From Acidobacteriota bacterium (GTDB lineage Bacteria > Acidobacteriota > Terriglobia > Bryobacterales > Bryobacteraceae), in contig CANIVU010000044.1 in the NCBI GenBank assembly GCA_947470805.1, positions 1 through 64,000 on the forward strand: DNA of 64,000 nt, read 5' to 3'. Made by a program: the position numbers and the translations under genes. Under the pieces are notes generated by a model. The model searched no databases and had not been told where the DNA came from. It worked only from the letters and a program-made list of their open reading frames with translations. Positions 4,209-19,385 of the stretch are shown here, one piece after another (position 1 is the stretch's first letter; each line of letters begins with the position of its first letter).

Positions 4209-4781
4209 ATGAAGATCCTGCAGCTGGTTGGCGATTTCGTGGAAGATTACGAAGTGATGGTTCCGTTTCAGGCCCTGACGATGGTGGGCCACACGGTGCA
4301 CGCGGTTTGCCCGGGGAAGACGGCGGGGCAATCGGTGCGCACGGCGATTCACGATTTCGAAGGCGACCAGACGTATAGCGAGAAGCCGGGTCATAATTTC
4401 AGCTTGAACGCGACGTTCGCGGATGTAGATGCGGCGGCGTACGACGCGTTGGTGGTGTCCGGCGGGCGGGCGCCGGAGTATCTCCGGTTGAACGCGGACG
4501 TCATCGCCATGGTGCGCCATTTCGCGGAGGCCGATAAGCCCATCGCCGCCATCTGCCACGGGCTGCAGATCCTGGCGGCGGCCGACGTACTGCGCGGCAA
4601 GCGGTGTACGGCCTACCCGGCGTGCGGGCCGGAGTGCCGGTTGGCCGGGGCCGATTACGTGGACATTCCGGTGGACCAGGCGGTGACGGACGGCAAGCTG
4701 GTGACCGCTCCCGCATGGCCCGCGCATCCAGCGTGGCTGGCCGCGTTCCTGCAGGTTCTGGGCACGAAGATTACGCTTTAG
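4209..4781 (+). CDS. DJ-1/PfpI family protein
   Basis: 190 residues, the whole length of a single DJ-1/PfpI domain. The nucleophile elbow AICHG is present, with the cysteine near residue 117, and the supporting glutamate near the N-terminus in [10 protein letters not shown]. Members act as cysteine-dependent glyoxalases or deglycases, proteases or chaperones in carbonyl stress; the elbow and the YSEKPGH segment fit the PfpI/YhbO branch. The gene follows the hybrid kinase by three bases, so the two are one transcript, and its stop overlaps that of the convergent RND gene by four bases. Cytoplasmic; no signal peptide. Confidence 0.8.
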
Positions 4782-7700
4782 ATCCCTTCGCCGTCTTCCG
4801 CTTTTCCGCGGCCGGTGGCCTTTTCCATAACGAGGTAGAGTGTCGGCAACACGATCAATGTAAGGATCGTGGCCGACACCAGGCCGCCGATGATAACCAC
4901 CGCCAGCGGCTTCTGCACTTCCGAGCCGATGCCCTTGGAGAGCGCCATCGGCAGCAAGCCGAGCATGGCCAGGCACGACGTCATCAGCACCGTTCGCAAG
5001 CGCACCATGGCGCCTTCGGTGGCGGCTTCGACGACCGTGGCGCCCTTCTCCCGCAGTTCGTTAAAGTAACTGACCATGACGACGCCGTTGAGCACCGCCT
5101 GTCCGAACAGCGCGATGAAACCGATGGCGGCGGACACGCTGAGATGGAGCCCGGTGAAGAGCAACGCGACGATACCGCCGATCATGGCGAACGGCACGTT
5201 GAGCAGGATGAGCGCGGCGTTCTTGAACGACTTGAACGCTTCGAAGAGGATGACGAAAATCAGGAACACGCTGGCCGGGAGAATGATCAGCAACCGCGCC
5301 ATGGCGCGCTCCTGGTTTTCAAATTCGCCGCCCCAGGTGGAGTAGTAGCCCGGAGGAAGCTGGACGTTCTTGCCCACCTTCTCCTTCATCTCCGCCACCA
5401 GGCTGCCCATGTCGCGATCCTTGATGAAGACGCCGATGGCCGACACCGATTTTCCGGACTCGCGGGAGATATTCAGGCTGCCGCTGCGGATGGAAACGTC
5501 GGTGACTTCTTCGAGCGGAATACGTTGCCCGTTGGGAGTATCGACGAGGATCTTCTTGATCGAATTGATGTCCCGGCGCTCGTCCTCTTTCAAGCGGACC
5601 ACGGCGCCAAACTTCTTCTCGCCTTCCCATATTTCGGTGGCTTCTTTGCCGCCGAGGGTGACCTCGATGATGTCCTCGATATCGGCGACATTGAGCCCGT
5701 AGCGAGCGGCTTTCTGGCGGTCGACGGTGATCTGTAACTGCGGCACTTCGCCGAAGCGATCGATGAAGGCGCGGCCCACGCCGCGGACGGCGGTGATGGT
5801 TTTCAGGATCTTCTGCACGTTAGTGCGAAGGATATTGGGATCGTCGCCGAAGACCTTGATGACGATCTGGCCATCGATCTGCGAGATGCTCTCGAGCACG
5901 CTGTCGCGGATGGGCATGGAGACGCTGGGGAACACGCCGGGGATCGAGTCCAGCTCGTCGCTGATCTGTTCCACAAGCTGTTCGCGGGTGATGTTGCGCG
6001 TCCATTGTTCCGGCGGTTTCACACCGACGAACATCTCCACCATGTTGAGCGTTTTGGGGTCAGTACCGTCTTCTGGACGGCCCGCCTGGCTGATGACGGT
6101 TTCCACTTCGGGAAACTTGCGGATCATGCCCCGCACTTTGCGAGCGAACTTGGTGGTCTCGACAATCGAGGTGCCGGGCGACATGGTCATGTTGACCCAC
6201 ATCGTGCCCTCGTTCAATTCGGGCAGGAACTCCGAGCCCAGTCGCGGCACCAGCGTGAGGCTGAAGATAAGCGACGCAACCGCGGCGGCGAGCACCGTAT
6301 AGGGCCGGCCTATGGCGGCCAGCAGAATGGGCTTGTAGATTTTCTTCGCGAAACGAACGACGAAGTTGTCTTCATGCGGCAGCGGCTTGCGCAGGAGGAA
6401 GTAGGCCAGCAGCGGCACCAGCGTCAGCGAGAAGATGAGCGAGCCGATGAGAGCGGAGACGACCGTGTAAGCCATCGGCGCGAAGATGCGGCCTTCGTGG
6501 CGCTGCAGGGCGAAGATCGGCAGATGCGCGGTGATGACGATCAACATGGCGAACAGCGTGGGCCGGCCCACCTGCGCCGCGGCGTCGATGATCTTTTCCT
6601 TGAACGATTCCGGCGTTCGTTCGGAGTGATCCTCCGATAGATTGCGGAAGATGTTTTCAATGACGATCACGGCGCCATCGACGATGATGCCGAAGTCCAT
6701 CGCGCCGAGCGACAGCAGGTTGGCGGGGATGCCTTTGATGGACAGGCCGATGAAGGTGGCCAGCAACGAGAGCGGAATGATGAGCGCCACGATGGCCGCC
6801 GCGCGGAAGTTGCCGAGAAAGACGAACAACACCACGGCCACTAGCACGGCGCCTTCCACCAGGTTCTTGAACACGGTGGTGAGCGTGGTGTTGATCAGCC
6901 ACGTGCGGTCATAAAACGCGTCGATCTTGACGCCCTTTGGTAGCCCAGTGCCGTTCAGTTCGTCAATCCGGTCCCGCACGCCCTTCAGCACTTCCGACGG
7001 GTTTTCGCCTTTGCGCATCAGCACAATGCCGGTGACCACTTCGTCGGAATCATCGCGGCCGACGATGCCCTGCCGCGGCACGAAACTCTGATTGATCGTG
7101 GCGATTTCGTGGACCAGAATCGGCGTGCCTTTCCGCTCGGCCACCACGACGTTGCCCATGTCCTCGGCGGAGCGCAACAGGCCCAGACCACGGATCAGGA
7201 ATTGCTGTTCGCCCTGGTCCACATAGCTGCCGCCGGCGTTGGCGTTGCCGCGTTTGAGCGCCGTGATGACCTGGTTGATCGGGATGTCGTAGGCCTTGGT
7301 TTTGGCGAGATCAAGACTCACTTCGTACTGCTTGATGAAGCCGCCGCGGCTGACCACTTCGGCCACGCCGGGGATAACTTTCAGCGCGCGGGCGACTGTC
7401 CAATCCTGAATGGAACGCAAGTCGGTGGCGCTCAGCCCGCCGCCTTTCAGTTCATAGCGGAAGAGCTCGCCGACCGGCGTCGCTAACGGCGCTAGCTCTG
7501 GTTTCACGCCTTCCGGCAGATCGATGGAATGCAAACGCTCCAGCACCTGCTGGCGGGCGAAGTAGGCGTCGACGTTGTCGTCGAAGGTGATCGGAATGAA
7601 CGACAGGCCAAACTGCGTGTGCGAGAACGTGCGAACCGCGTGCGGGATCCCGCTCAACCCGATCTCCAACGGAATCGTTACCTGCTTCTCCACTTCCTCG

Positions 7701-7873
7701 GCAGCGTGGCCGGGGTAGAGCGTAATGACGATCACCTGCACGTCGGTGACATCGGGGAACGCTTCAATGGGAAGGTTTCGAAATGCCACGACACCGAAGA
7801 CGATGAAGTGGATCATCAACAACGCGAAGAACATCTTCTGGTTGATGGCGAACGAAACAAGTTTTCTGATCAT
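4778..7873 (-). CDS. czcA: Heavy-metal efflux RND pump (CzcA/CusA family)
   Basis: 1031 residues, full length for a heavy-metal RND transporter. The N-terminus [13 protein letters not shown] with the following membrane helix and the segment [12 protein letters not shown] are family hallmarks. Two sets of six C-terminal helices flank two large periplasmic porter loops; the acidic residues in the [19 protein letters not shown] helix are the proton-relay and metal-path positions. It forms the inner-membrane engine of the tripartite complex with the two genes upstream, exporting divalent metals (Zn, Co, Cd, Ni) or Cu/Ag. Metal specificity cannot be read with confidence. It lies 14 bases after the adaptor gene. 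Confidence 0.92.
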
Positions 7874-7887
7874 GGCGGGTCCGGTCT

Positions 7888-9048
7888 TTACTGCTGCTTC
7901 CTGGCTTCCATCTGGCGCAGGAGGAGCGCCCCGGAACTGACAATTTCTTCCCCGGGCCCGACGCCGCTCAGCACACGCATCCGGCCGCCGTCGGCGCCTT
8001 CCGCCTTCACCTCGGCGCGGACAAACTCACTGGCGCCCGCCTTCTTGAACACGTAGCTCTTTTCCCCGATCGCGAAAATGGAGGTTGCCGGCACCAGCAC
8101 GCACTTTTCCGACTCGTTCAAAAACAGCTTCACCGAAGCAAACATCTCCGGCTTCAAATTGCGCGTCGGGTTGGCCACAGTGAAACGCACCTTTACCGTA
8201 CGCGTGTCGCTATCGATGACCTGGGCGATATAGGAAACCTGCGCGTTAAACACGCGGTCCGGATAGGCCGACGTGGTCAACTGCGCCCGCTGGCCCACGC
8301 GCACGTGGCGCATTTCGTGTTCGAAAACATCGGCCAGCGCCCAGAGCGTGGAAAGGTCGGATATGACCACCAGCGGATCATGCTCCGGCTGTACGAATTG
8401 GCCTTCGGTTACGCTGCGTTCGATGACCGTTCCCAAACGCGGGGAGAGGATCGGAATCCGCGGATCCAGCTTGCCCTCGGTCATCGGATTCACGCCTAGA
8501 ATATGCAACGCCTCTTCGGTACGGGCCACGCGGACCTTTGCTTTTTCCACGTCGCGCTGCGCCTGGTCGACGGCCATGCGCGAACCGGCCTGATGGTCGA
8601 ACAGATCCTTGGCCATGCGCTGCGATTTCAACGCCAGCTCCAGGTCCTTGGATTCTTCCAGATAATCCGTCATCGCGGCGGCGGCATCTCGGCTGTTGAG
8701 GAAAAACAGCCGGTCGCCCTTGCGAACTTCGCTGCCCACTTTGACCGCCAACTGCTGCACCTGTCCATTGACGGGGGCGATGATGCGGGCCACTTCGTCT
8801 TCGTTGAACTGCAGCTTGCCGGTGGCCGAAAGCACCACCTGGCGATTCTCCTCATGGACCTGTTCGATCTTGAGGTTGTGCAACATCTCCCCGTCGACCT
8901 TCAACACGGCCATCCCGCCAGCGGAGGTTTTTTCTTCCGTCGCGGCGGGCTTTGTCTCTTCCACCTTCTGCTGCGGGCTTTCCTTCTGGCAGCCACACAG
9001 ACCCAAGGCCAACACCCCGGCGCCGAGCCATCCCATCTGCCTTTTCAC
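7888..9048 (-). CDS. czcB: Periplasmic adaptor lipoprotein of the RND pump (CzcB-like)
   Basis: 386 residues with a lipoprotein leader: MKRQMGWLGAGVLALGLCGC, with the lipidated cysteine next to QKES. The rest follows the membrane-fusion-protein plan: a biotinyl-lipoyl half motif (IIAPVNGQVQQLAVKVGSEV), a helical hairpin around residues 135-185 that contacts the outer-membrane channel, the second lipoyl half (ILSPRLGTVIERSVTEGQFV), then beta-barrel and membrane-proximal domains. It joins the RND pump to the TolC-like channel. The start overlaps the stop of the upstream channel gene by four bases, indicating translational coupling. Confidence 0.9.
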   Translation of the reverse strand: MKRQMGWLGAGVLALGLCGCQKESPQQKVEETKPAATEEKTSAGGMAVLKVDGEMLHNLKIEQVHEENRQVVLSATGKLQFNEDEVARIIAPVNGQVQQLAVKVGSEVRKGDRLFFLNSRDAAAAMTDYLEESKDLELALKSQRMAKDLFDHQAGSRMAVDQAQRDVEKAKVRVARTEEALHILGVNPMTEGKLDPRIPILSPRLGTVIERSVTEGQFVQPEHDPLVVISDLSTLWALADVFEHEMRHVRVGQRAQLTTSAYPDRVFNAQVSYIAQVIDSDTRTVKVRFTVANPTRNLKPEMFASVKLFLNESEKCVLVPATSIFAIGEKSYVFKKAGASEFVRAEVKAEGADGGRMRVLSGVGPGEEIVSSGALLLRQMEARKQQ

Positions 9049-10331
9049 TCGATGATCTCCTTGTTGACGCTGGCATTCAGATTGACCACGGCGCGGCGAT
9101 AGTCCCCCAGCGCCTCCTGATAGCTCTGCATCGAATCATTCAGCGCCCGCTGCGCGTCCAGAAACTCCAGCAACGACGAAGCGCCGGCGCGGTACACGTA
9201 GCCGGCCGTATCGCGCGCCTTTCGGGCGTTGTCCAACAGATCTTTTTCAATGCTCTCGACCAGCTCCCGCGAGGCGACAAACGAGTCGTAGGCGGCGCGT
9301 ACTTCGTTCCGCGCGTTGATCGCGAGTGCTTCCATCTGCCGGGCGTAGAGTTTTTGTTCGGCCTCCACCCGGGCAATCTCGCCCTGGTTTTTGTTGTTGA
9401 CGGCCAGCGGCACGCTGAGGAAGACGCCCATGGAATTCGATGTGCCGTTAATTCCCTGCTGGCGGCGATATTCGGTGCCGTAGGTGTAGTCGGTCTTGGC
9501 GTTGGCCAGTTGCAGTTTCAACTCGGCGACCGAGCGCATCTGGTTCAACCGGACGGTCTGCAACTCGGGCCGGGACTCGATGGCCAGCTGCTCCAGTTTT
9601 TCGACAGGCAGCGTGGCGGGCGCCAGAGGCACCTTCAACTCACCGGCGATATCGATCTTCTGGCCCAACACCTGCGGCCCCAGGAGCGACTGCACGCGTG
9701 TCCGGGCCCGCGTGACGCCTAACTGCGCGCGCTGCACCTGATTCTTGAACTGCAGCATCGCCACGCGCGAACGAACCAGTTCCAACGGAGACACGGAGCC
9801 CGCGTTCACACGCGCTTCATTGATCTGAAACAGCTCCTGATAGTTCTTCAGGATTTCTTCGGCCAGTGTCAGGTTGGCCTTAGCCTGGATCAGGTCGACG
9901 CACGCGGAGATGACCGTGATGCGCAGGTTGCGAATCGCCTCGGCCAGGCGCGCTTCGGCGAGTTGGCGATTGAACTGCGCGGTCTCCACGCGGTACTCGC
10001 GTTTGTGAGCGCGTTCGATGAGGAAGTCGATGCGCGCGTTGATTTCGTTCGGGCCGGCGTTATTGATGCTGTTGTAGCGGGTACCGAGTACGTCGAGGTG
10101 ATCAGCGCCGAGGCTCAGCACGGGATTGGGCTTCAGGCGTGCGGTGATCAGAGTGGCTTCGGCAACCGGGATATTGGCCCGTTCGGCCAGCACGGAGAGG
10201 TTGTTGTCCACGGCCTCGGAAACGGCCTGTGCAATTGTGAGAGTGCGTGCGCCTGACTGGGCGCAGAGTAGAGCGGGGAGCAGCAGTGATAGGGCTGCTT
10301 GTTGGGGAAAGCGAACTTTCAGGAATGACAT
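9045..10331 (-). CDS. czcC: TolC-family outer-membrane channel of the RND pump (CzcC-like)
   Basis: 428 residues with a signal peptide (about 1-25, ending LLCAQS). Two repeats of the outer-membrane efflux protein family are visible, starting at TLTIAQAVSEAVDNN and at ESRPELQTVRLNQM, each long and helical with alanine- and glutamine-rich heptads. It forms the trimeric exit duct. First gene of the czcCBA set. The 45-base gap from the NuoM-like gene upstream holds an AT-rich patch but no clear promoter, so it may also be read from the transporter operon. Confidence 0.88.
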   Translation of the reverse strand: MSFLKVRFPQQAALSLLLPALLCAQSGARTLTIAQAVSEAVDNNLSVLAERANIPVAEATLITARLKPNPVLSLGADHLDVLGTRYNSINNAGPNEINARIDFLIERAHKREYRVETAQFNRQLAEARLAEAIRNLRITVISACVDLIQAKANLTLAEEILKNYQELFQINEARVNAGSVSPLELVRSRVAMLQFKNQVQRAQLGVTRARTRVQSLLGPQVLGQKIDIAGELKVPLAPATLPVEKLEQLAIESRPELQTVRLNQMRSVAELKLQLANAKTDYTYGTEYRRQQGINGTSNSMGVFLSVPLAVNNKNQGEIARVEAEQKLYARQMEALAINARNEVRAAYDSFVASRELVESIEKDLLDNARKARDTAGYVYRAGASSLLEFLDAQRALNDSMQSYQEALGDYRRAVVNLNASVNKEIIE

Positions 10332-10376: not shown

Positions 10377-11810
10377 TTAGTGACCAGTCAGAAATGCAAC
10401 CGGATGGCCAAGCGCCTGGCTGATTTCATGCGCGGCGTTGGCACGCAAAGCAACGGCGACGTTCGGCATCATACCGGCCGCGACGATGAAGAAGACGATG
10501 GCGGCCAGTACCCACCGCTCCCGGGGAACCGCGTCGGCGATGCCCTGAATACCTGTGCGCTGGGTACCAGTAAACATGCGGGAGAACAAGCGGAACAGAC
10601 TGACAGCGTTCATCGCCGTCGCCATCGGCAGCAGCAGCCCCACCTGCGGATGGCTGATCAAAGTGCCATGAATGAGGAGATCCTCCGAGCAGAAGCCGAG
10701 AGTGCCAGGCAGACCCACGAGAGCCAGACCACACACGACGAAGAAGACGGCGAGCCGGGGCGTGTATTCCGAAAAACCGAGGTAGTGTTCCGTGGTGAAG
10801 GAACGGTTGAAGCGAACCTCCATCAATCGCAGGACACCGAACAAGCCGGTGGTGGCGACGGCGACGACGACGCAATGGACCAGAGCACCGGTGACGCCTT
10901 CCTGCGTGGCGCTTTCCAGCCCCGCCAGAATGCAAGCCGACTGGCTCAAAACCAGCAGCGCCAGAATGCGGCGGGCGCGAGTTTCGGCCACGGCGCGGAT
11001 GGCGGCGTAGACGGCCGTGAACAGCGCCAGATCGGAAAGGATGGGGAACGTACCCTGCGCGGAAAGCGGGAAGTCCGGAATGACCACACGGGCCAGAAGA
11101 AAGGCACCGAAATGGCCGTTGATGAACAGGCAGACGGGCAGCACGGGTCCGGCTTCAGCGGCGTCTTCAATCCAGGCGTGGGCGGGAAATATGCCCTTGC
11201 GGCAGACGATGGCCACGATCAGCAGGGCGAAGGCGGCCTGGCCACCGTAGTTGTGGCCGGCGAGCGAGGCGATGGAAAACGGCTGCGTGTCGCCACCGGC
11301 CTGCGCCGCGCTGACGATGATCGAAATCGCGCCCACCAACGCGATGCAGGAGGCGGCCAGGCCGGCGCGCGGGCGCCAACTTCCCGTGAAGGGACCGGCG
11401 ATGAAGGGCAGAGCGGAGAGGATCCAGGCGGCGGCCAGAACGATCAGATTGTCGGCTCCGTAGGCGCTGAGTGTGGCGGCCAGGACCAGCAGCGTGGTAC
11501 CGGTGATCTTGGCGCTTGTGTCCCGGCGCGGGGCGAGGATCAGGATGCCGAGCGTCAGCAGCGAATAGAGCACCAGGAACGTTGCGTTCAGGTTGTCGGC
11601 GGTGAACAGGCCCAGCGACCAGGGTTCGGCCAGTTTGGCGTTACCCGCCGCGCTGACTTCCCGAAGGATTTCCAGAGAGCAGAGCGATGCGCCGACGGCG
11701 CCGGCCACGCCGGCCATTCGCGCCCGGGCGTTGTTGGTGAACGCAGCCACCGCGGCAACAGCCGGGATGCCGATGGCGGCGGTGATCAGCGGAAACGAGA
11801 GATCAGCCAT
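10377..11810 (-). CDS. Second NuoM/MrpD-like proton-conducting membrane subunit
   Basis: 477 residues, almost entirely membrane helices (about 14), matching the proton-antiporter M family of complex I and Mrp subunits. The helix with KGIFPAHAWIEDAAEAGPVLP corresponds to the conserved loop of NuoL/M/N, with the lysine and histidines of the proton channel. Its start overlaps the stop of the NuoL-like gene by eight bases (ATGGCTGA). The described two-gene DAB systems have one such subunit; here there are two. It may lengthen the proton path that powers DabA. No other complex I genes are nearby, so a respiratory role is unlikely. Confidence 0.8.
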   Translation of the reverse strand: MADLSFPLITAAIGIPAVAAVAAFTNNARARMAGVAGAVGASLCSLEILREVSAAGNAKLAEPWSLGLFTADNLNATFLVLYSLLTLGILILAPRRDTSAKITGTTLLVLAATLSAYGADNLIVLAAAWILSALPFIAGPFTGSWRPRAGLAASCIALVGAISIIVSAAQAGGDTQPFSIASLAGHNYGGQAAFALLIVAIVCRKGIFPAHAWIEDAAEAGPVLPVCLFINGHFGAFLLARVVIPDFPLSAQGTFPILSDLALFTAVYAAIRAVAETRARRILALLVLSQSACILAGLESATQEGVTGALVHCVVVAVATTGLFGVLRLMEVRFNRSFTTEHYLGFSEYTPRLAVFFVVCGLALVGLPGTLGFCSEDLLIHGTLISHPQVGLLLPMATAMNAVSLFRLFSRMFTGTQRTGIQGIADAVPRERWVLAAIVFFIVAAGMMPNVAVALRANAAHEISQALGHPVAFLTGH

Positions 11811-13149
11811 CGATGGCTCCTTCTTCCTTCACGCCACGGAGCAATACAGCCTGTTTCTCAGCGGGCTCAGCGGTGCCAAGACCCATCCGGTCCAGCTTGG
11901 CGAGCAGGCGGGAGAGCGCCAGCAGGGGCTCCACGAAGCCGCGTTCCAGGATCGTGTCGAGATGGCCGCGATCCATGGCCAGCCGGTAGATCCAAAGCTG
12001 CATGGATTGCGGGAACATGGATTCCAGGTGTTTGCCGGTCTTCTCCAAGTGGCCGCCGGCGGCGGCGTGCACCTGGTGATAGTCGTGCAACATGGACGGG
12101 GCGCGCAGGAACTGCAGCGTCCGGACCATGGCATGGCCGAGGATGTGCATGATGGGTACCCAGGTCCAGCCGAAGCCGATCTCCATAAACACGACGCCAA
12201 CCTGGGCGAGGGCGGCATAGGCGAGTGAGGTCTTGGCGTCGGCACAGGTACGGCCGACGATGGTGCCGTGCACCGCCGTCATCAAACCGATAAGAACAAC
12301 GGCGCCGGAGGCGATGGGGGATTCGATCAGAATCGGTTGGGCCCGCAGCAGCAGGTAGGCGCCGGCGTGGACGGAGATGGCGCCGTAGAAAATGGCGCTC
12401 GACGGCGTGGGGCCTTCCATGGCGCGGGGTAGCCAGCCGGAGAAGGGGACCTGGGCCGATTTGCCCGCGGCGGAGAGCAACAGCAGGAGCCCGATGACGG
12501 TGGCGTCACTGTTGGAAAGGTGGGGCATGCCATCGGCGAACGAGGACGTGTGGGCGTAATGATGCATGGCGAACGCGGCGGTGATGAGGCCGATATCGCA
12601 AGCCCGGTAGACGGTGAAGACGCGCATGGCGCCATCGACGGGGCCTAGCCGGTAGTGGAAGAACGAGATGAGCAGCACCGAGGTGATGCCGACCATTTCC
12701 CAGCCGCCGATAATCAGGTCAAACGAACCGGCCGAGAAGATCAATAGAGCGCCGAAGGCAAACAGGTGCAGCAGAATGTAGAAGCGGGCGAAGCCCGGAT
12801 CACGGTGCAGGTAGGTGGCCGAAAACTGTCCGATGAGGCCGACCAGAATGACGGTCAAGGCCAGGAACGGAAGCGCCAGCCGGTCTCCGAGGAGAACGAG
12901 CGGAAAGTGGTAGTCGTGAACGGTGAACCAGTCGCCCAACGGCACGGCGACGGATTCGACCCCGGCCATGTGCATGGACCACGCCATCCAGGCCACTGCG
13001 GCGGTGGCGGCGGAGTAGACGACCGCTGTGATGCGGGTCAGCGATCGTTCCGGTGCGTCCCAGCCCAACAGCCAGAGAATGGAAAACAGTGCGAACACCA
13101 CGCCGGGCGTGAGCACGACTCCGAGCAGAATGAGTTGCAGTTGCGTCAC
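11803..13149 (-). CDS. dabB: DabB-like NuoL-family membrane subunit
   Basis: 448 residues from a GTG at 13149 that overlaps the stop of dabA (GTGA); the frame is open further upstream but that part is an antisense-type, arginine-rich extension inside dabA. About 12-13 membrane helices with the proton-antiporter motif, including FSGWLPRAMEGPTPSSAIFY, the conserved NuoL segment with the channel lysine replaced in the usual DabB way. In the described DAB systems this subunit is thought to use the proton gradient to drive the carbonic-anhydrase-like DabA. Gene order and coupling to dabA support this role. The C-terminal 60 residues are soluble and charged. Confidence 0.85.
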   Translation of the reverse strand: MTQLQLILLGVVLTPGVVFALFSILWLLGWDAPERSLTRITAVVYSAATAAVAWMAWSMHMAGVESVAVPLGDWFTVHDYHFPLVLLGDRLALPFLALTVILVGLIGQFSATYLHRDPGFARFYILLHLFAFGALLIFSAGSFDLIIGGWEMVGITSVLLISFFHYRLGPVDGAMRVFTVYRACDIGLITAAFAMHHYAHTSSFADGMPHLSNSDATVIGLLLLLSAAGKSAQVPFSGWLPRAMEGPTPSSAIFYGAISVHAGAYLLLRAQPILIESPIASGAVVLIGLMTAVHGTIVGRTCADAKTSLAYAALAQVGVVFMEIGFGWTWVPIMHILGHAMVRTLQFLRAPSMLHDYHQVHAAAGGHLEKTGKHLESMFPQSMQLWIYRLAMDRGHLDTILERGFVEPLLALSRLLAKLDRMGLGTAEPAEKQAVLLRGVKEEGAIDG

Positions 13150-15938
13150 CGGCTGCCCCCGTTTGCGGCGGCGGGCTGAATGCGAGCCATGGGCAGATGT
13201 TCCAGCTTTCCTTGGTACCAGTCGATGGAGGAGGGAGCGGTAGGCAGCGGCTTCACTTCTCCTTCGAGATCGTCGTACCCCTCGTCGCGGCGGATTTGGA
13301 TGCGGCCGGTAGCCGGGTCCATCGTAGCGACGCGGATCCACCGGTTGACGACGAACTCTTTCACCGTCGGATTGGCCATGATGACTTTTTCCAGCCGTTC
13401 CGGCGTGGTTTCGATGACGAACAGGATGCGGACGGGTTCATGGATCTCCACCATTTGGAGCGGCAGACCGGTGCGAAGATCGCTGGCCTGGCCGTTCATG
13501 ACGCCGATCAGGCCGGTGACGTTATGGGGCAGCTTGGTGCCACAACCATAGCGTTCGTTGTCGACGAAGGAGAAGTAGTATTCCAGGCTGATCCCGCCGC
13601 AAACCGGAACCACGGCGCCTAACAGGCGGCCGAGGCTTTCGTTTGCCGGATCGATGTCGGGATCATAGGAAACGAGGAACGCGCGGCGATCGAAAAAGAG
13701 AGTACGGGTAACATCGCGACGGCCGACGATACAGACGGCGTTCGTGCAGTGGCCGTATTCCGGGCGGGGCTGGGCGAGATGCTCGGAGCGCTCCTCGACG
13801 TGCCAGAGAGCGGCGGCCGGGTCAGCATCGTCGGAACAGGATTCAAAGCGCCGGGCGCGCTCATGGGCGCTGCGGGCGCGGGCCAGATCGAGCGAGTGGC
13901 GGATGGCGTTGAGGTCCGGCGCGTGGGAGGGCGGAACCTGTTCGGTATCGAAAAGAACGACATCGTCGCTGCAGGTATCGTGATACCCGCCGACGAACCA
14001 GGTGTCCTGCGGCACGTTGATGCCGCGCGAGACAAGCTCTTTACGCACGTCCGGATGGTTCGCCATGGCGGCGAACAACCGGGCATTGGGACCGCCGCGG
14101 CGGCCGCCGCAAGCGCCGCAATCGTGCGCCGATTCGTGGGGATTATTCAGACTGGTTGACCCATGACCCAGGATGACGACCAAACGGGAAAAGTCCTTGA
14201 TCAAACCGGCCGGGCCCAGTACGCTGGCGACACGATCGGCCTTCTCGGCGATCGCGAAGCCTTGCAGCAACCCGTGCACCGCCTGTTGCGATTCCACGCT
14301 GTCGCGCATGAGCGTGACTTCGGTACGCGGCTCCGGGAAGAAGGCGCGGTTCAATGCTTCACGAAGAAGTCCGTAGCGCCGGGGCGCCAGCACGCGGGCG
14401 ATGAGCGGGACGGAGGTTAACGTTCCCAGCACCGCGGTACTCAATGCACCACGCACCAGGGAGCGGGAGGAGACGAACAAGCCTCTGCTGATCTTGGCCC
14501 AAATCCGGCGGCGGAAGACGCGCTGCTCATGCAGCCCGGCGTCCTCTTCCATGGGACGCTCCATGACGGCGTGTTGCGGCTTGACGACCACGGGGCAGAG
14601 CGCCACGCCATGGGCATCGTCAATTCCCTTGTAGTCAACCGCGACACCGAAGAAGCCGGCGGCGGCGAAGGTCTCCGCCAACGGGTCCACTTCCTCCAAC
14701 GCACGGCGAATGGACTCTTCCCGTTCGTCGATGCAGAAGAACACCTGCGCCACCGGGCGCATGCGGCGCTTTGTTGGCACATACTCCCGGCGGTGGCTGG
14801 CGAGGCCGAGCAGAATTTCCTGTTCATGCCAGCGTTCATACGCCAGATGAAACACGCGACGGCGTTCCAGATGATCGAACGACTCGGCTTCAACCACGAA
14901 TCGCGTCCACCGCTGTGGCGTCCAGCCTTCGATGGTCGAGGCGGAGAACTTCGCCAAGCGGGCCGCGTCGTACAGACTCGCGGCGCGCGCCATGCGCTCC
15001 GCTTCGGGATCCGCGGGAGGCGCGGGGGGCGCGGCTTTCAGATTTTCCGAAGCCACGCTCCCCAACGTGAGGCGAACAGCCAAGTAATCTGCCAGGGAGC
15101 AGGGAACGGGATCGTGGGGGAACAAAGCCGGGTCATTTTCGAGTTGGGCGAAGAGACCGGGCCAGCCGGGCATGGCCAGTAATTCGTCGCGCAAACGCGG
15201 TTCCCAGCTGTTCTGGTCGGGGCCTAGAAATCCGATGACAAGATCTTCGGCACTTACGCCGCTGACGATTTGGCGACGGAACACTTCGTCCAATCCAGAG
15301 AGGCCCTGCGGATAGATCGCCGCCGGCTGCGAGAGCAACTTCCGGACAGCGAGATAGAAGCCTTCTTCGCGACCGGGCATCGGCCAGTACGACATTCCCT
15401 GATCAAGGAATACCGAACAGAGCCGGATGAGCCACGGATGGACGATCTCATCGACGGCGCGGCCCGCCGGTGTACGGACGACTTGCGGCTCTTCGGTCCT
15501 GGCCAGGCAGGACTGGAACAGCGCCCGCAACGCCGGCGAACGGAAATCTTCGGCGAGATCGCCTTCCTCAATGCGCCACGGCGTTCCGACGGCATCGAAG
15601 CTCCGGACACCCGGCGTCAACATCGCCCGCCAAAGCTGGCGGCGTTGGAGACCGGGAACGATTTCGGCATCCACTTCCCTTGCCAAAACCGCGTCGATAT
15701 CCTCTTCCCGAATCCGGCCCTGTGCCATGGCATCCCGGTACTGCGCCTCGGCCATGTAGGGTTCGGTATGAAAAATATTCGACGCCTCCAACACCGCTTT
15801 TTCAAAGGGCAGATGCTGGAAGGCGTGCAGGGTGTTGTGGTGAATGAAGACGCCAATCGGACCCTGCGCAGGCAGGAAATGCGCCACGTGATGAAGCACG
15901 TGGCGCAGATGTTCTTGCGGGTTGGAATGTTCGCTCAA
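13146..15938 (-). CDS. dabA: DabA, zinc-binding DUF2309 subunit of an inorganic-carbon transporter
   Basis: 930 residues starting at TTG 15938, which overlaps the SulP stop (TTGA). The beta-carbonic-anhydrase-like zinc ligands are all present with the published spacing: C402 and D404 in FFCIDEREES, H592 in ILGHGSTS and C607 in HDCGACGG, fifteen residues after the histidine. The N-terminus (HHVAHFLPAQGPIGVFIHHN) and NERYGCGTKLPHNVTGLIGV near 795-815 are DUF2309 signatures. DabA with DabB is known to convert CO2 to bicarbonate vectorially and so load the cell with inorganic carbon. An upstream ATG at 16091 exists but lies inside the SulP frame and adds no conserved sequence. Confidence 0.9.
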   Translation of the reverse strand: MSEHSNPQEHLRHVLHHVAHFLPAQGPIGVFIHHNTLHAFQHLPFEKAVLEASNIFHTEPYMAEAQYRDAMAQGRIREEDIDAVLAREVDAEIVPGLQRRQLWRAMLTPGVRSFDAVGTPWRIEEGDLAEDFRSPALRALFQSCLARTEEPQVVRTPAGRAVDEIVHPWLIRLCSVFLDQGMSYWPMPGREEGFYLAVRKLLSQPAAIYPQGLSGLDEVFRRQIVSGVSAEDLVIGFLGPDQNSWEPRLRDELLAMPGWPGLFAQLENDPALFPHDPVPCSLADYLAVRLTLGSVASENLKAAPPAPPADPEAERMARAASLYDAARLAKFSASTIEGWTPQRWTRFVVEAESFDHLERRRVFHLAYERWHEQEILLGLASHRREYVPTKRRMRPVAQVFFCIDEREESIRRALEEVDPLAETFAAAGFFGVAVDYKGIDDAHGVALCPVVVKPQHAVMERPMEEDAGLHEQRVFRRRIWAKISRGLFVSSRSLVRGALSTAVLGTLTSVPLIARVLAPRRYGLLREALNRAFFPEPRTEVTLMRDSVESQQAVHGLLQGFAIAEKADRVASVLGPAGLIKDFSRLVVILGHGSTSLNNPHESAHDCGACGGRRGGPNARLFAAMANHPDVRKELVSRGINVPQDTWFVGGYHDTCSDDVVLFDTEQVPPSHAPDLNAIRHSLDLARARSAHERARRFESCSDDADPAAALWHVEERSEHLAQPRPEYGHCTNAVCIVGRRDVTRTLFFDRRAFLVSYDPDIDPANESLGRLLGAVVPVCGGISLEYYFSFVDNERYGCGTKLPHNVTGLIGVMNGQASDLRTGLPLQMVEIHEPVRILFVIETTPERLEKVIMANPTVKEFVVNRWIRVATMDPATGRIQIRRDEGYDDLEGEVKPLPTAPSSIDWYQGKLEHLPMARIQPAAANGGSR

Positions 15939-17521
15939 GCAGCCACCACGGGGCGCGCCTTCCGGCGCACGGCCAGTTGATGTTCCGACAACGCTTCGTG
16001 GTCGTCCAACCCAACCAGGATCAGCTTGCGGTCCGTCCAACTCCGTTCCATTCCATGAAGTTTTTCGAGAACCGTGTGGTCCACAACCCACGCGTTATCA
16101 AAATCGATGACTACGGTCTTCACGCTGTCGTCGATGGCCAACAGGCGGGTTTTCAGGCCGAGATAGTTCGTAAAGATGGCGGCTTCATGGACGTAGAGAG
16201 TAAGCTCACTTCCGTTGCGCTCTTCCTTCACGATCGCTTTAAACATCGTGCTGAACCGCGCACCATTCTTCAGGTGCAATGCCATCTTCAGGATTAGGCC
16301 GATGCCAACGCCGATCAACAAATCCGTGGCAAGAGTAATGAGCATGGTGGTGACAAAGAGCAGGAGTTGTTCGGCGCCGATCTTGTACACGTGCACAAAT
16401 TCCTTGGGCGACGCCAATCGGAAGCCCGTATAGATGAGCATACCAGCCAGCGCGGCGAGCGGGATCTTCTGCAACAGGCCGGGGATGAGGGCGAGCGAGG
16501 CGAGCAGGAACAGGCCGTGGAAGAAATTGGACAGGTGGCTCTTGGCGCCGTTGTCGATATTGGCCTTGGAACGGACGATCTCCGAAATCATCGGCAGGCC
16601 GCCGAGTGCGGAGGCGACCGTATTGCCGATGCCGGTGGCCAGCAGGTCTTTGTTCATGTCGCTGGTGCGTTTTTCCGGGTCGAGCGAATCGACGGCGGAG
16701 ACGCTGAGCAGAGATTCGATGCTGCCGACCAGAGCGAACATGACGATGTACTTGATGGAGGCGGCGCTGAAGACGACCGAAAAGTCCGGGAAGGCGATCG
16801 TGCTGGCAAGGGACCCGGGAAGGCGGATGAGGAATTTCGGTCCGATATGGAACAGGTGGTTGGAGAGGTAGTAGTTGTGCTCATGTTCCAGGTCGAAGAG
16901 CAGGCCAATCGGCACGGCGACCAGCAATACCACCATTGGCCCGGGAATCTGGCGAATCCATTTCGCTTTCAGGAGCGGCAGGCCGAATAGGATGAGCAGT
17001 GATAGTAATCCTATGAAGCAAACCTCCGGGTTGAGGTTGAGGATGCTGTGCGGAATTTCGGCCAAAAGGTGGAGCGGTTCCTTCCCTTCCGGGGTAACGC
17101 CCAGCGCCACGTGTGTTTGCTTGGAGATGATGATGACGCCAATGGCGGCCAACATGCCGTGGACCACGGCGGAGGGCATGAGATCGCCGACCGCTCCGGC
17201 TTTCATGAGCGCGAACACGATCTGGATGACACCAGCGATCAAGCCCACGGCGAGTGCCCGTTTATAACCCAGGATATTGTCGCCGGCGCCCAATTCCGTG
17301 ACAGCGCCAAGGGCGATCACGATCAAGCCCGCGGCCGGACCTTTGATGGTCAGCCGGGCGCTGCCCATGAAGGAAACGAGTAGACCACCGATGACCGCCG
17401 TGAGAACGCCGGCAGTCGGCGGGAAGCCGCTCGCCATCGATATGCCGAGGCACAGCGGCAAGGCAATCAAAAAGACGAGAAAGCCCGAGCCGATATCCGA
17501 TTTCAAGGTGCTGGACAACAT
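15935..17521 (-). CDS. SulP-family anion transporter with STAS domain (bicarbonate or sulfate)
   Basis: 528 residues from ATG 17521, with GGAGAG eight bases upstream. The membrane part (1-410) has the SulP signature with GFPPTAGVLTAVIGGLLVSF and the motif RLTIKGPAAGLIVIALGAV that forms the anion site. The cytoplasmic tail (about 430-515) is a STAS domain, recognisable from VKTVVIDFDNAWVVDHTVLE. SulP proteins carry sulfate, bicarbonate or other anions. Its place as first gene of a dabA-dabB operon, coupled by a TTGA overlap, makes bicarbonate the likely cargo; that is inference. The promoter must lie in the 243-base gap to the divergent histidine kinase. Confidence 0.88.
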   Translation of the reverse strand: MLSSTLKSDIGSGFLVFLIALPLCLGISMASGFPPTAGVLTAVIGGLLVSFMGSARLTIKGPAAGLIVIALGAVTELGAGDNILGYKRALAVGLIAGVIQIVFALMKAGAVGDLMPSAVVHGMLAAIGVIIISKQTHVALGVTPEGKEPLHLLAEIPHSILNLNPEVCFIGLLSLLILFGLPLLKAKWIRQIPGPMVVLLVAVPIGLLFDLEHEHNYYLSNHLFHIGPKFLIRLPGSLASTIAFPDFSVVFSAASIKYIVMFALVGSIESLLSVSAVDSLDPEKRTSDMNKDLLATGIGNTVASALGGLPMISEIVRSKANIDNGAKSHLSNFFHGLFLLASLALIPGLLQKIPLAALAGMLIYTGFRLASPKEFVHVYKIGAEQLLLFVTTMLITLATDLLIGVGIGLILKMALHLKNGARFSTMFKAIVKEERNGSELTLYVHEAAIFTNYLGLKTRLLAIDDSVKTVVIDFDNAWVVDHTVLEKLHGMERSWTDRKLILVGLDDHEALSEHQLAVRRKARPVVAA

Positions 17522-17764: not shown

Positions 17765-18754
17765 ATGTACCGGCTGGTCCCACTGTTCGAACAGAATGTT
17801 CTGCGCATTCTGGCTTTGGGGTTTGCGATGGTGGTGGCGCTGGTGATTGCGGCGGCGTATGTGGGGTATCAGGGGTCGAAGTCGATTCATGAAAACGCCC
17901 AGGAGTTGGTTCGCGGCCATTTTGTGAGTTCGGGGCGCGGGGCGGAGTTGGAAGGGCAGATTGAAAAGCAGTCGCAGGAGCTGCTGGATGAGTTGGAGGG
18001 TGTACTTGGCATCTGCCTCGTGCTGGCGTTCGCCTGCGCCGGGATCACGGTGTATACGACGCGGCGGGCCTTTCGGAGGCTGGAATGGCAGGCCGAGGAG
18101 CTGGACAAAGTATCGTGGCAGATGCTGCAGGACCAGGAGGTGGTGGCGCGTCGGTTTTCGCACGAGATGCATGACGAACTGGGCCAGTCGCTGACCGGAC
18201 TGCGGAGTATGTTGAAGCGGATGGACGGCGCCGATTTTGTGGAGCACCGGGGCGAATGTGTGGAAATTCTGGAAGGGGCTTTGACCGGTGTGCGGGAGTT
18301 AAGCCAGCTGTTGCGGCCGGTGATTTTGGACGATTTCGGGCTGGACGCCGGGCTGCGCTGGCTAACGGAACGGTTTTCGGAACGGACGCAGATTGGGACG
18401 GAGTATTGGTCCTACTGTCCGCGGCGGTTGGCGGATGAACAGGAGACGCAGCTGTTCCGGATTGCGCAGGAAGCGCTGACAAACGTAGCGCGGCATTCGG
18501 GTGCGACTGAGGTCATCATCCGATTGGATACCAGCGGGGACCGTGTGTTGCTGCGGATTGAGGATAATGGGCGGGGTATGCCAGAGGAAGTCCAGAAGAA
18601 GCCGAGTCTGGGATTGGTTGGGATGCGGGCACGGGCACGGCACGTCGGCGGAGAATTCAGCACGGCGAATAAAAAACAAGGGGGATTACGGGTGGAAGTT
18701 AAAGCGCCAGCGAAATTTGCGGAGCCGGGAGACGGCGATGTTGCCTCAGAATAA
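17765..18754 (+). CDS. NarX-type sensor histidine kinase
   Basis: 329 residues. Two membrane helices (about 13-34 and 78-98) enclose a periplasmic segment of only about 43 residues. A linker leads to a HisKA_3 dimerisation domain with FSHEMHDELGQSL, the phospho-acceptor being H136. The ATPase domain shows the EDNGRGMP motif and GLGMR-like GLVGMRARA. This is the sensor class that pairs with NarL-type regulators, and the regulator gene starts inside its last codons. It is transcribed divergently from the SulP/Dab operon, so it may sense or control that system. GGAGGG sits unusually close to the ATG. Confidence 0.88.
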   Translation: MYRLVPLFEQNVLRILALGFAMVVALVIAAAYVGYQGSKSIHENAQELVRGHFVSSGRGAELEGQIEKQSQELLDELEGVLGICLVLAFACAGITVYTTRRAFRRLEWQAEELDKVSWQMLQDQEVVARRFSHEMHDELGQSLTGLRSMLKRMDGADFVEHRGECVEILEGALTGVRELSQLLRPVILDDFGLDAGLRWLTERFSERTQIGTEYWSYCPRRLADEQETQLFRIAQEALTNVARHSGATEVIIRLDTSGDRVLLRIEDNGRGMPEEVQKKPSLGLVGMRARARHVGGEFSTANKKQGGLRVEVKAPAKFAEPGDGDVASE

Positions 18755-19385
18755 GAAGACGCGAATTCTGTTGGTGGACGATCATACCGTGGTTCGAAAG
18801 GGCATTCGAATGATCCTCTCCGCGCAGCCGGACCTGGAGGTTGTAGCGGAGGCGAAGAACGGGCTGGAGGCGGTGACGGAGGCGGAGAGGACGCAGCCGG
18901 ATGTCGTCATTATGGACGTCAACATGGAAGGCCTGAACGGGATTGAAGGGGCGCGGCGGATTGGAGAGATTTGTCCGCGGACGCGGGTACTGGCTCTGAG
19001 TATGCACCGGGATGCGGTGTATGTGCGGGAGATGCTGCGGGCCGGGGCGAAGGGGTATCTGGTGAAAGATGCCGACGACGATGCGTTGTTGGACGCAGTG
19101 CGGGCGGTGGCGCGGGGGGAGGCGTATTTGAGCCCGTCGGTGGCCGATGCGGTGTTGACCGATTACCGGAAGCATGTGACGAACCCGGTGGACCTGCTGA
19201 CGGCGCGCGAGCGGGAGGTGCTGCAGTTGATCGCCGAGGGGAAGACGAACAAGGACATTGCGAACCAGTTGAGCTTGAGCGTTTATACAGTGGAGGCGCA
19301 CCGGAGCCGGCTGATGGAGAAGTTGAACCTGCATTCGACGGGCGATCTGGTGCGATTTGCGATTCGAAATGGCTTTATCAGTTAG
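18738..19385 (+). CDS. NarL/FixJ-type response regulator
   Basis: 215 residues from ATG 18738, with GGGAG eight bases upstream; the start overlaps the kinase gene by 17 bases. The receiver has DD at 14-15, phospho-acceptor D60 in VVIMDVNMEG, and K near 109 in GYLVKDAD. The C-terminal LuxR-type HTH (about 150-210) includes LTAREREVLQLIAEGKTNKD and the recognition helix VYTVEAHRSRLMEKL. It is a DNA-binding output for the preceding kinase. Likely targets include its own region and the divergent SulP/Dab operon; this is inference from position. Confidence 0.92.
   Translation: MLPQNKKTRILLVDDHTVVRKGIRMILSAQPDLEVVAEAKNGLEAVTEAERTQPDVVIMDVNMEGLNGIEGARRIGEICPRTRVLALSMHRDAVYVREMLRAGAKGYLVKDADDDALLDAVRAVARGEAYLSPSVADAVLTDYRKHVTNPVDLLTAREREVLQLIAEGKTNKDIANQLSLSVYTVEAHRSRLMEKLNLHSTGDLVRFAIRNGFIS

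Follow-up and report, generated by a model that had tools for sequence, protein, structure and literature searches.

A second, DabA-first type of DAB complex, predicted to be a proton-coupled CO2 hydratase with two membrane subunits, in an Acidobacteriota operon

We analyzed a stretch of 64,000 nucleotides from an Acidobacteriota bacterium of the family Bryobacteraceae (assembly GCA_947470805.1, contig CANIVU010000044.1, positions 1 to 64,000), referred to here as the window. On its minus strand (17521-10377) lies an operon transcribed in the order SulP transporter, DabA, DabB and NuoM-like gene. Judged by their sequences, its DabA and DabB belong to a distinct subfamily, separate from the type represented by DAB2 of Halothiobacillus neapolitanus, which we call DabA-first after its gene order. 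We put at roughly 0.55 the probability that the system is a second type of DAB, working on its own as a membrane-coupled CO2 hydratase, with a proton path across both membrane subunits; DabB and the NuoM-like protein appear to share the proton-conducting part. A preliminary description of the window had recognized a four-gene SulP-DabA-DabB-NuoM operon with overlapping junctions, which the reading frames, Pfam and the NuoM model TIGR01972 bear out. It had regarded the operon as a two-gene core that was extended at both ends; we find instead a separate subfamily, with a DabB that lacks the C-terminal helices and a DabA that lacks the coupling glutamate. The short length of DabB and the degenerate N-terminal half of the NuoM-like subunit had gone unnoticed there.

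Loci L007-L086 come from a scan of GTDB genomes with the window DabA: they are the top 80 among 461 relatives, so the linkage counts describe the kin of the window. To these we added, with the Pfam family profile and not with the window protein, the DabA proteins of the window's phylum (297 genomes), of Planctomycetota (matches in 32 of 246 genomes; 30 loci from the 47 matches listed) and of Bacteroidota (matches in 23 of 345 genomes; 25 loci from 25 matches). The family, PF10070, is not common in the window's phylum: 5 of the 297 sampled genomes have it, the host among them. The resulting DabA table has 142 rows. One is the H. neapolitanus piece, and seven repeat places already read (L111, L115, L118, L119, L120, L143 and L156). 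Once H. neapolitanus and the doubles were dropped, 107 distinct rows were DabA-first, 22 were DabB-first and 5 had an unread gene order.

The zinc site of the window DabA consists of C402, D404, R406, H592 and C607, numbered from a TTG start that was chosen because of its TTGA overlap with the SulP gene. The four ligands are exactly those named in the preliminary description, and they align to C351, D353, H524 and C539 of H. neapolitanus DabA2. The "published spacing" claimed for them is exact only in part: the C-to-D distance of 2 and the H-to-C distance of 15 equal those of DabA2, but the D-to-H distance is 188 versus 171. The ligands and the Asp-Arg dyad, whose roles in DabA2 are taken from PMC13144422, are kept in 83 of 83 DabA-first proteins.

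Outside the zinc site the two subfamilies part. Glu444 of DAB2 lies in a DabA finger inserted in DabB, and Ala or Gln at that position left no activity in vivo (PMC13144422). The window DabA has Ala502 there, and Glu occurs in none of the 107 distinct DabA-first rows (4 gaps), in contrast to 20 of the 22 DabB-first rows, the other two having Ser. An acidic residue is never among the three commonest residues in any DabA-first finger column (H. neapolitanus 425-461). Gly447, three columns past 444, is invariant in 110/110 DabA-first and 24/24 DabB-first rows, which anchors the alignment in this region; these and the finger-column counts were made with only three doubles removed, and the 24 include H. 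neapolitanus and L156. Leu658 of DAB2 replaces the transition-state-stabilizing Gln or His of beta-carbonic anhydrases (beta-CAs) and was strict among 150 homologues; several replacements were tolerated, and L658Q gave no spontaneous carbonic anhydrase (CA) activity in vitro (PMC13144422). At this position the window DabA has His730. His is found in 105 of the 107 DabA-first rows (one Asn, and one gap in a split frame) and Leu in all 22 DabB-first rows. Position 356 is Glu in 100/107 DabA-first rows and Ser in 22/22 DabB-first rows. By alignment, then, the DabA-first proteins have the canonical beta-CA residue type at 658 and are without the DAB2 coupling glutamate, and the 150-homologue sample presumably did not extend to them. 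In a DabA tree, one branch with an SH-aLRT value of 100 splits 46 DabA-first rows (45 sampled and the window) from 22 DabB-first rows; the tree was built in quick mode with fragments dropped, and the tool flagged long branches and uneven letter make-up. Two PF10070 frames of about 590 residues (G508:C1:3629368-3630900 and G565:C1:2595114-2596643) align with the profile only at its two ends, the middle part being absent, and the Planctomycetota loci L167 and L168 (and G522) carry two divergent DabA-first systems back to back.

The window DabB has transmembrane helices (TM) 1-11 of a NuoL-like protein, with E151, R182/D185, K230, Y255 and R343, and is missing TM12-15. It matches NuoL (8e9g_L) at E 1.6e-44 and DabB2 at only E 6.1e-27; the match runs only to about residue 360, except for a weak match between the end of DabB and that of one NuoL. 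By a simple hydropathy count of 19-residue stretches past the last channel helix, 72 of 79 separate DabA-first DabB tails have no such stretch and 7 have one; the window has none. The same count gave four in DabB2 (printed part), in the DabB of host contig C1 and in L003, three in L004, and five in NuoL. In 74 of 76 loci DabB could be scored; in the other two, L066 and L068, its frame overlaps DabA.

The shortened protein differs from DAB2 in its channel residues as well. The position of DAB2 residue 151 is Glu, as in NuoL, in all 80 readable DabA-first DabB proteins (an 81st row was cut off), and positions 260 and 347 are Tyr and Arg in 80/80 (H260Y and K347R relative to DAB2). The same holds for the DabA-first loci of the Planctomycetota and Bacteroidota samples, with Glu151 and Tyr260 in 29/29 and Arg347 in the 27/27 that could be read. 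Conversely, a non-acidic residue at 151, His260 and Lys347 are found in 20/20 DabB-first rows (19 distinct genes). In DAB2, Ala at 260 or 347 impairs function and Glu at 151 halves the growth yield (PMC13144422). The equivalents of DAB2 Asp185, Lys235, Lys310 and His339 are retained in DabA-first DabB. The Bacteroidota DabB-first proteins of L132-L136, L138, L140-L142 and L150 are without R182, D185 and K235 in the alignment; that of L137 is unaffected.

A NuoM-like gene lies downstream in 63 of the 64 loci with at least 2.8 kb of flank, and in the exception, L081, it is fused to DabB. The window protein is degenerate in its N-terminal half, where it has no equivalent of Glu144, and carries E376 in its C-terminal half at the position of NuoM Glu407. 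Glu is present at the Glu144 site in none of 67 NuoM-like proteins (one gap; L076 has a Glu close by), Arg stands for Lys234 in 61/67 and Gln for His322 in 57/67. We consider it very improbable that this subunit is part of another complex and is only co-transcribed with the DAB genes. It is about 23% identical to the host's own NuoM and is matched by NuoM models, but the linkage, the fusion to DabB in L081 and a separate nuoLMN set on host contig C55 all argue otherwise. Membership in complex I was itself ruled out by that linkage and the separate nuoLMN set. The assignment of a second antiporter-type subunit to the DabA/DabB-type system is thus supported, either as a gene of its own or as a C-terminal half at the end of DabB.

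Long forms of DabB bear on how the two subunits fit together. The end of the L081 DabB shares 22-44% identity with the NuoM-like C-terminal halves compared with it, and is preceded by a tail like that of the short form; an AlphaFold2 model of this fusion has a mean pLDDT of 88.2 and a pTM of 0.90. Ten Bacteroidota loci (L157-L166) and the Planctomycetota loci L167 and L168 have DabB frames of 623-657 residues that keep E151, Y260 and R347. Their ends score 36-61 bits against the NuoM-like profile, and a G-E-D motif with the TM12 Glu is kept in 11 of the 12. An assembly error in L081 was thought unlikely, given a similar DabB length and end in these 12 other contigs, albeit with modest scores. 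The NuoM-like profile also matches the N-terminal half of DabB across L157-L168 at 22-48 bits, so in these loci the C-terminal half may instead be the protein's own NuoL-type end after divergence. The reading of a long DabB as DabB plus a NuoM-like C-terminal half is firm for L081 alone.

The Glu144 pair of NuoL faces NuoM in complex I. A subunit that has no neighbor on that face would need no Glu, which fits the reciprocal pattern of the interface Glu: it is retained in DabA-first DabB, which has a second subunit, lost in the NuoM-like subunit, beyond which nothing follows, and absent from DabB-first DabB, DAB2 being described without a second subunit. The location of this pair near the subunit interface is described in PMC13144422. 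Together with the L081 fusion, the pattern suggests that the C-terminal half of the NuoM-like protein is set against DabB, forming one lateral proton path. A two-subunit proton path had been proposed for the window. Both subunits would indeed contribute, but as parts of a single path, since a NuoM-like subunit without its own Glu144 makes the two membrane proteins resemble one path and not two.

From the gene linkage, the residue exchanges, the DabB truncation, the long DabB forms and the two-clade split, we infer the following placement of subunits, proton route, reaction direction, SulP substrate and regulation. CO2 would reach the zinc site of cytoplasmic DabA and be hydrated to bicarbonate. 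The proton motive force would drive the reaction through a two-subunit membrane arm, with the subunits next to each other as NuoM and NuoL are in complex I. From the TM12 acid in the C-terminal half of the NuoM-like protein, protons would move on to the short DabB and its Glu151/Arg182-Asp185/Lys230 network, and would exit on the cytoplasmic side beneath DabA. The DabA finger may shield the face of DabB that lacks TM12-15 and would contribute no proton-carrying glutamate. SulP, if present, might transport a counter-anion or bicarbonate itself, and expression of the operon might be adjusted by a two-component system. For DAB2, both CO2 as the substrate and proton coupling are supported (PMC13144422). 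Also in favor of the proposal, SulP and a beta-CA gene occur together in the run of genes in L058, L081 and L163.

Several observations weigh against this proposal. Residues needed in DAB2 (E444, H260 and K347) differ here, so coupling could work in another way or fail altogether, and the function of the subfamily as a coupled hydratase is a prediction. The TM12 (Glu407) site of the NuoM-like subunit varies: of 67 proteins, 35 have E, 15 have Q and 7 have D, and 10 have another residue or a gap. The C-terminal matches of the Bacteroidota long DabB proteins are modest at 36-56 bits, and the N-terminal half of DabB scores 26-48 bits against the same profile. L169-L171 and the second systems of L167 and L168 have long DabA-first DabB proteins of 667-669 residues with little or no score for the C-terminal-half profile; this group has C-terminal helices of its own, with a W-E motif where shown. 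In Foldseek, the L081 model aligned with NuoL over about 690 columns at a root mean square deviation (rmsd) of 19-23 Å and a TM-score by query length of 0.43-0.51 among the 50 matches listed. With an rmsd of about 20 Å and a TM-score of about 0.5, the fused half does not lie at the place of NuoL TM12-16 as superposed. An accumulated bicarbonate pool is drained by cytosolic CA in CO2-concentrating mechanisms, and beta-CA was found in 30 of 32 host genomes, hand-picked from the 80 loci L007-L086, where it would reverse cytosolic accumulation of bicarbonate.

This last point also speaks for a different and, in our view, unlikely arrangement, in which DabA-first DabA is an ordinary, spontaneously active beta-type CA and the arm uses the proton for pH balance or runs from bicarbonate to CO2. 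Widespread beta-CA argues against a pool-building role, and the prevalence of His at 658 and the lack of Glu444 in every distinct row are what such an enzyme might show. The L658Q result with DAB2 tells against it (PMC13144422), however, and a conserved membrane partner implies coupling. Slightly less likely is a Na+- or H+-driven bicarbonate carrier, with DabA as a bound CA-like domain and SulP as a partner carrier. MpsAB has been proposed to be a Na+/HCO3- symporter (PMC13144422), and SulP adjoins many of the loci; against this, the invariant zinc site and Asp-Arg dyad suggest catalysis, and DAB2 gave no relief from sodium stress and functioned without sodium (PMC13144422).

Carbonyl sulfide and carbon disulfide are substrates of other enzymes with the beta-CA fold, and a small substrate of this kind might be imagined for the DabA-first proteins, given the active-site changes S356E and L658H and a neighbor from the sulfate-permease family. 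We think this improbable, as the CA zinc set is fully conserved and a beta-CA gene lies in the gene run of L058, L081 and L163 (SulP-CA-DabA-DabB) and directly 5' of DabA in L005. Further beta-CA genes lie nearby in L033 and L064, a lower bound obtained with one CA query. The proton-coupled hydratase with a shared path is the reading we prefer. A wider version of it, offered tentatively and possible rather than probable, is that PF10070 comprises two ancient vectorial CAs with different mechanisms. The DabA-first one would make no use of a finger Glu; a single lateral path, built from a NuoM-like C-terminal half and the N-terminal half of a truncated NuoL-like subunit, would be a pared-down, complex-I-like proton path of two modules with no redox chemistry, and would drive a zinc site that has the transition-state His of beta-CAs.

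Of the 69 loci with 1.7 kb or more of upstream flank, 44 have an adjoining SulP gene (32 upstream, 9 divergent and 3 downstream), which makes SulP an optional, accessory member. The transported anion is probably bicarbonate or another anion. The best solved relative of the window SulP is 6ki1, which we take to be the BicA transporter, although the entry is named "Low affinity sulfate transporter". At its Asp258/Thr262 site, presumably the functional Na+/HCO3- site, the window SulP has Glu/Ser, and Glu stands at the Asp258 position in 48/48 other SulP matches at the loci, whether adjacent to DabA or not. A STAS domain had also been attributed to the window SulP; no Pfam STAS match was found even at E 5, though two full-length SulP-family models reach residues 494 and 505.

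Of the 80 loci of relatives, 22 have a linked kinase and NarL-type regulator pair, a candidate CO2- or bicarbonate-responsive two-component system. The pair is divergent in near kin and in L041. In L033, L034, L038 and L071 it precedes the operon on the same strand, and in L039, L043, L045, L047, L051, L053 and L054 it lies immediately 3' of the NuoM-like gene. In the window it diverges from the operon (Table 1). The three junctions of the operon all overlap, by TTGA (SulP/DabA), GTGA (DabA/DabB) and ATGGCTGA, 8 nt (DabB/NuoM-like). The last gene matches TIGR01972 at E 3.7e-38, under the curated cut-off of that model. A cluster encoding an RND efflux pump, an adaptor and an outer-membrane protein adjoins the operon (window 4778-10331) and is shared with L008 alone among the relatives' loci.

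Table 1. Genes of the operon and of the adjoining two-component system in the window
Feature	Coordinates	Strand	Basis
SulP (SLC26) family anion transporter; operon gene 1	15935..17521	-	PF00916, E 4.5e-59
DabA-first-type DabA, 930 aa	13146..15938	-	PF10070, E 4.3e-230
Short DabB, 448 aa, GTG start	11803..13149	-	PF00361, E 2.3e-33
NuoM-like second membrane subunit "NuoM2", 477 aa	10377..11810	-	PF00361, E 2e-27
HisKA_3 sensor kinase, divergent from operon	17765..18754	+	Pfam HisKA_3/HATPase_c
NarL/LuxR-type response regulator, partner of the kinase	18738..19385	+	Response_reg and GerE

The host genome has 8.7 Mb in 220 contigs, with a listed completeness of 100% and contamination of 3.1%. In the DabA tree, which is a gene tree and not a taxonomy, the nearest relatives of the window DabA come from Bryobacterales and Solibacteraceae. 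The six PF00361 matches of the host are three at C55 (the nuoL/M/N set), one at C1 and two in the window operon. The C1 match belongs to a second DAB pair (C1:44400-48100; L001, L174) of the DabB-first type, with Glu444 and Leu658. The host has three beta-CA-family matches, one of them forming a plain pair with a directly adjoining SulP gene on contig C22 (L093, L096, L173). Contig C31 (L095) encodes a divergent beta-CA-like protein with a partial profile match and a hydrophobic N-terminus resembling a signal peptide.

RuBisCO had been reported missing from the window, and a search of the whole host genome likewise gave zero matches at E 0.01. Among the 32 host genomes RuBisCO was found in 3, and the hosts are thus mostly without a Calvin cycle. 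Supply of bicarbonate to anaplerotic carboxylases, suggested in the preliminary description, is a possible role for the operon. The host's own beta-CA-family matches speak against it, as a cytosolic CA would drain the bicarbonate. Ordinary CA could already meet the anaplerotic need in most hosts, so low-CO2 growth and pH balance are equally open roles.

How DAB complexes use proton flow to hydrate CO2 is not settled; the one solved example gives a single DabA glutamate a key role. With no Glu444, a shorter DabB and an added NuoM-type half, the DabA-first subfamily amounts to a natural experiment on the DAB2 glutamate model. If our reading is true, its arm would be a very small system in which to study lateral proton transfer among antiporter-like modules, a central issue for complex I. 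Active CO2 handling would also reach further, into bacteria that for the most part have no RuBisCO.

The order of the four genes was already published in 2017 (Klimchuk et al., PMC5700660), as the "clade C" ybcC operons of COGNAT, in which DabA precedes a NuoL homologue and COG0659 (SulP) and COG1008 (NuoM) are neighbors. That account assigned clade C no function or fold, and suggested an energy-linked complex in which an exergonic reaction pumps ions out; in its passages on clade C the residue exchanges, truncation, long DabB forms and regulator given here are not described. In the open-access literature searched, no other description of the DabA-first subfamily came up, and priority is uncertain. 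Counts of DAC and SulP genes among autotrophs are given in PMC10880623.

The system shares with the broad family of dissolved-inorganic-carbon-accumulating complexes (DAC/DAB/Mps) a PF10070 large subunit, an adjoining PF00361 NuoL-type subunit and the zinc set. MpsAB of Staphylococcus aureus likewise combines PF10070 with a NuoL homologue and supplies inorganic carbon in a heterotroph; no NuoM-like subunit is mentioned for it in PMC13144422 or in the abstracts consulted. The pairs and fusions of SulP with CA (Felce and Saier 2004, cited in PMC6458275) are alike in tying a SulP carrier genetically to a beta-CA, but the CA-like partner here is a DabA with a proton-conducting arm. Unlike Na+/HCO3- transporters of the BicA type, the window SulP is without Asp258/Thr262, and unlike NuoM of complex I, the window NuoM-like gene lies outside any nuo cluster with NuoL and NuoN. 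Cyanobacterial NDH-1MS, with the membrane subunits NdhF3/NdhD3, is attached to a redox complex and draws its CA part from a different protein family. It is alike in outline, coupling CO2 hydration to an arm of NuoL and NuoM type (PMC13144422), which is a resemblance and not membership. DAB2 (DabA2-DabB2, PDB 9rd0/9rd8/9rd9) likewise has a PF10070 subunit, the same zinc ligands and Asp-Arg dyad, and a NuoL-like subunit. DabA of the window type differs from it in having no Glu444, Glu for Ser356 and His for Leu658, and DabB in having Glu151, Tyr for His260, Arg for Lys347 and none of TM12-15 of the 15 helices of the DAB2 protein. Finally, the window-type system adds a NuoM-like subunit and places DabA upstream of DabB, whereas the rows with DAB2 residues are DabB-first.

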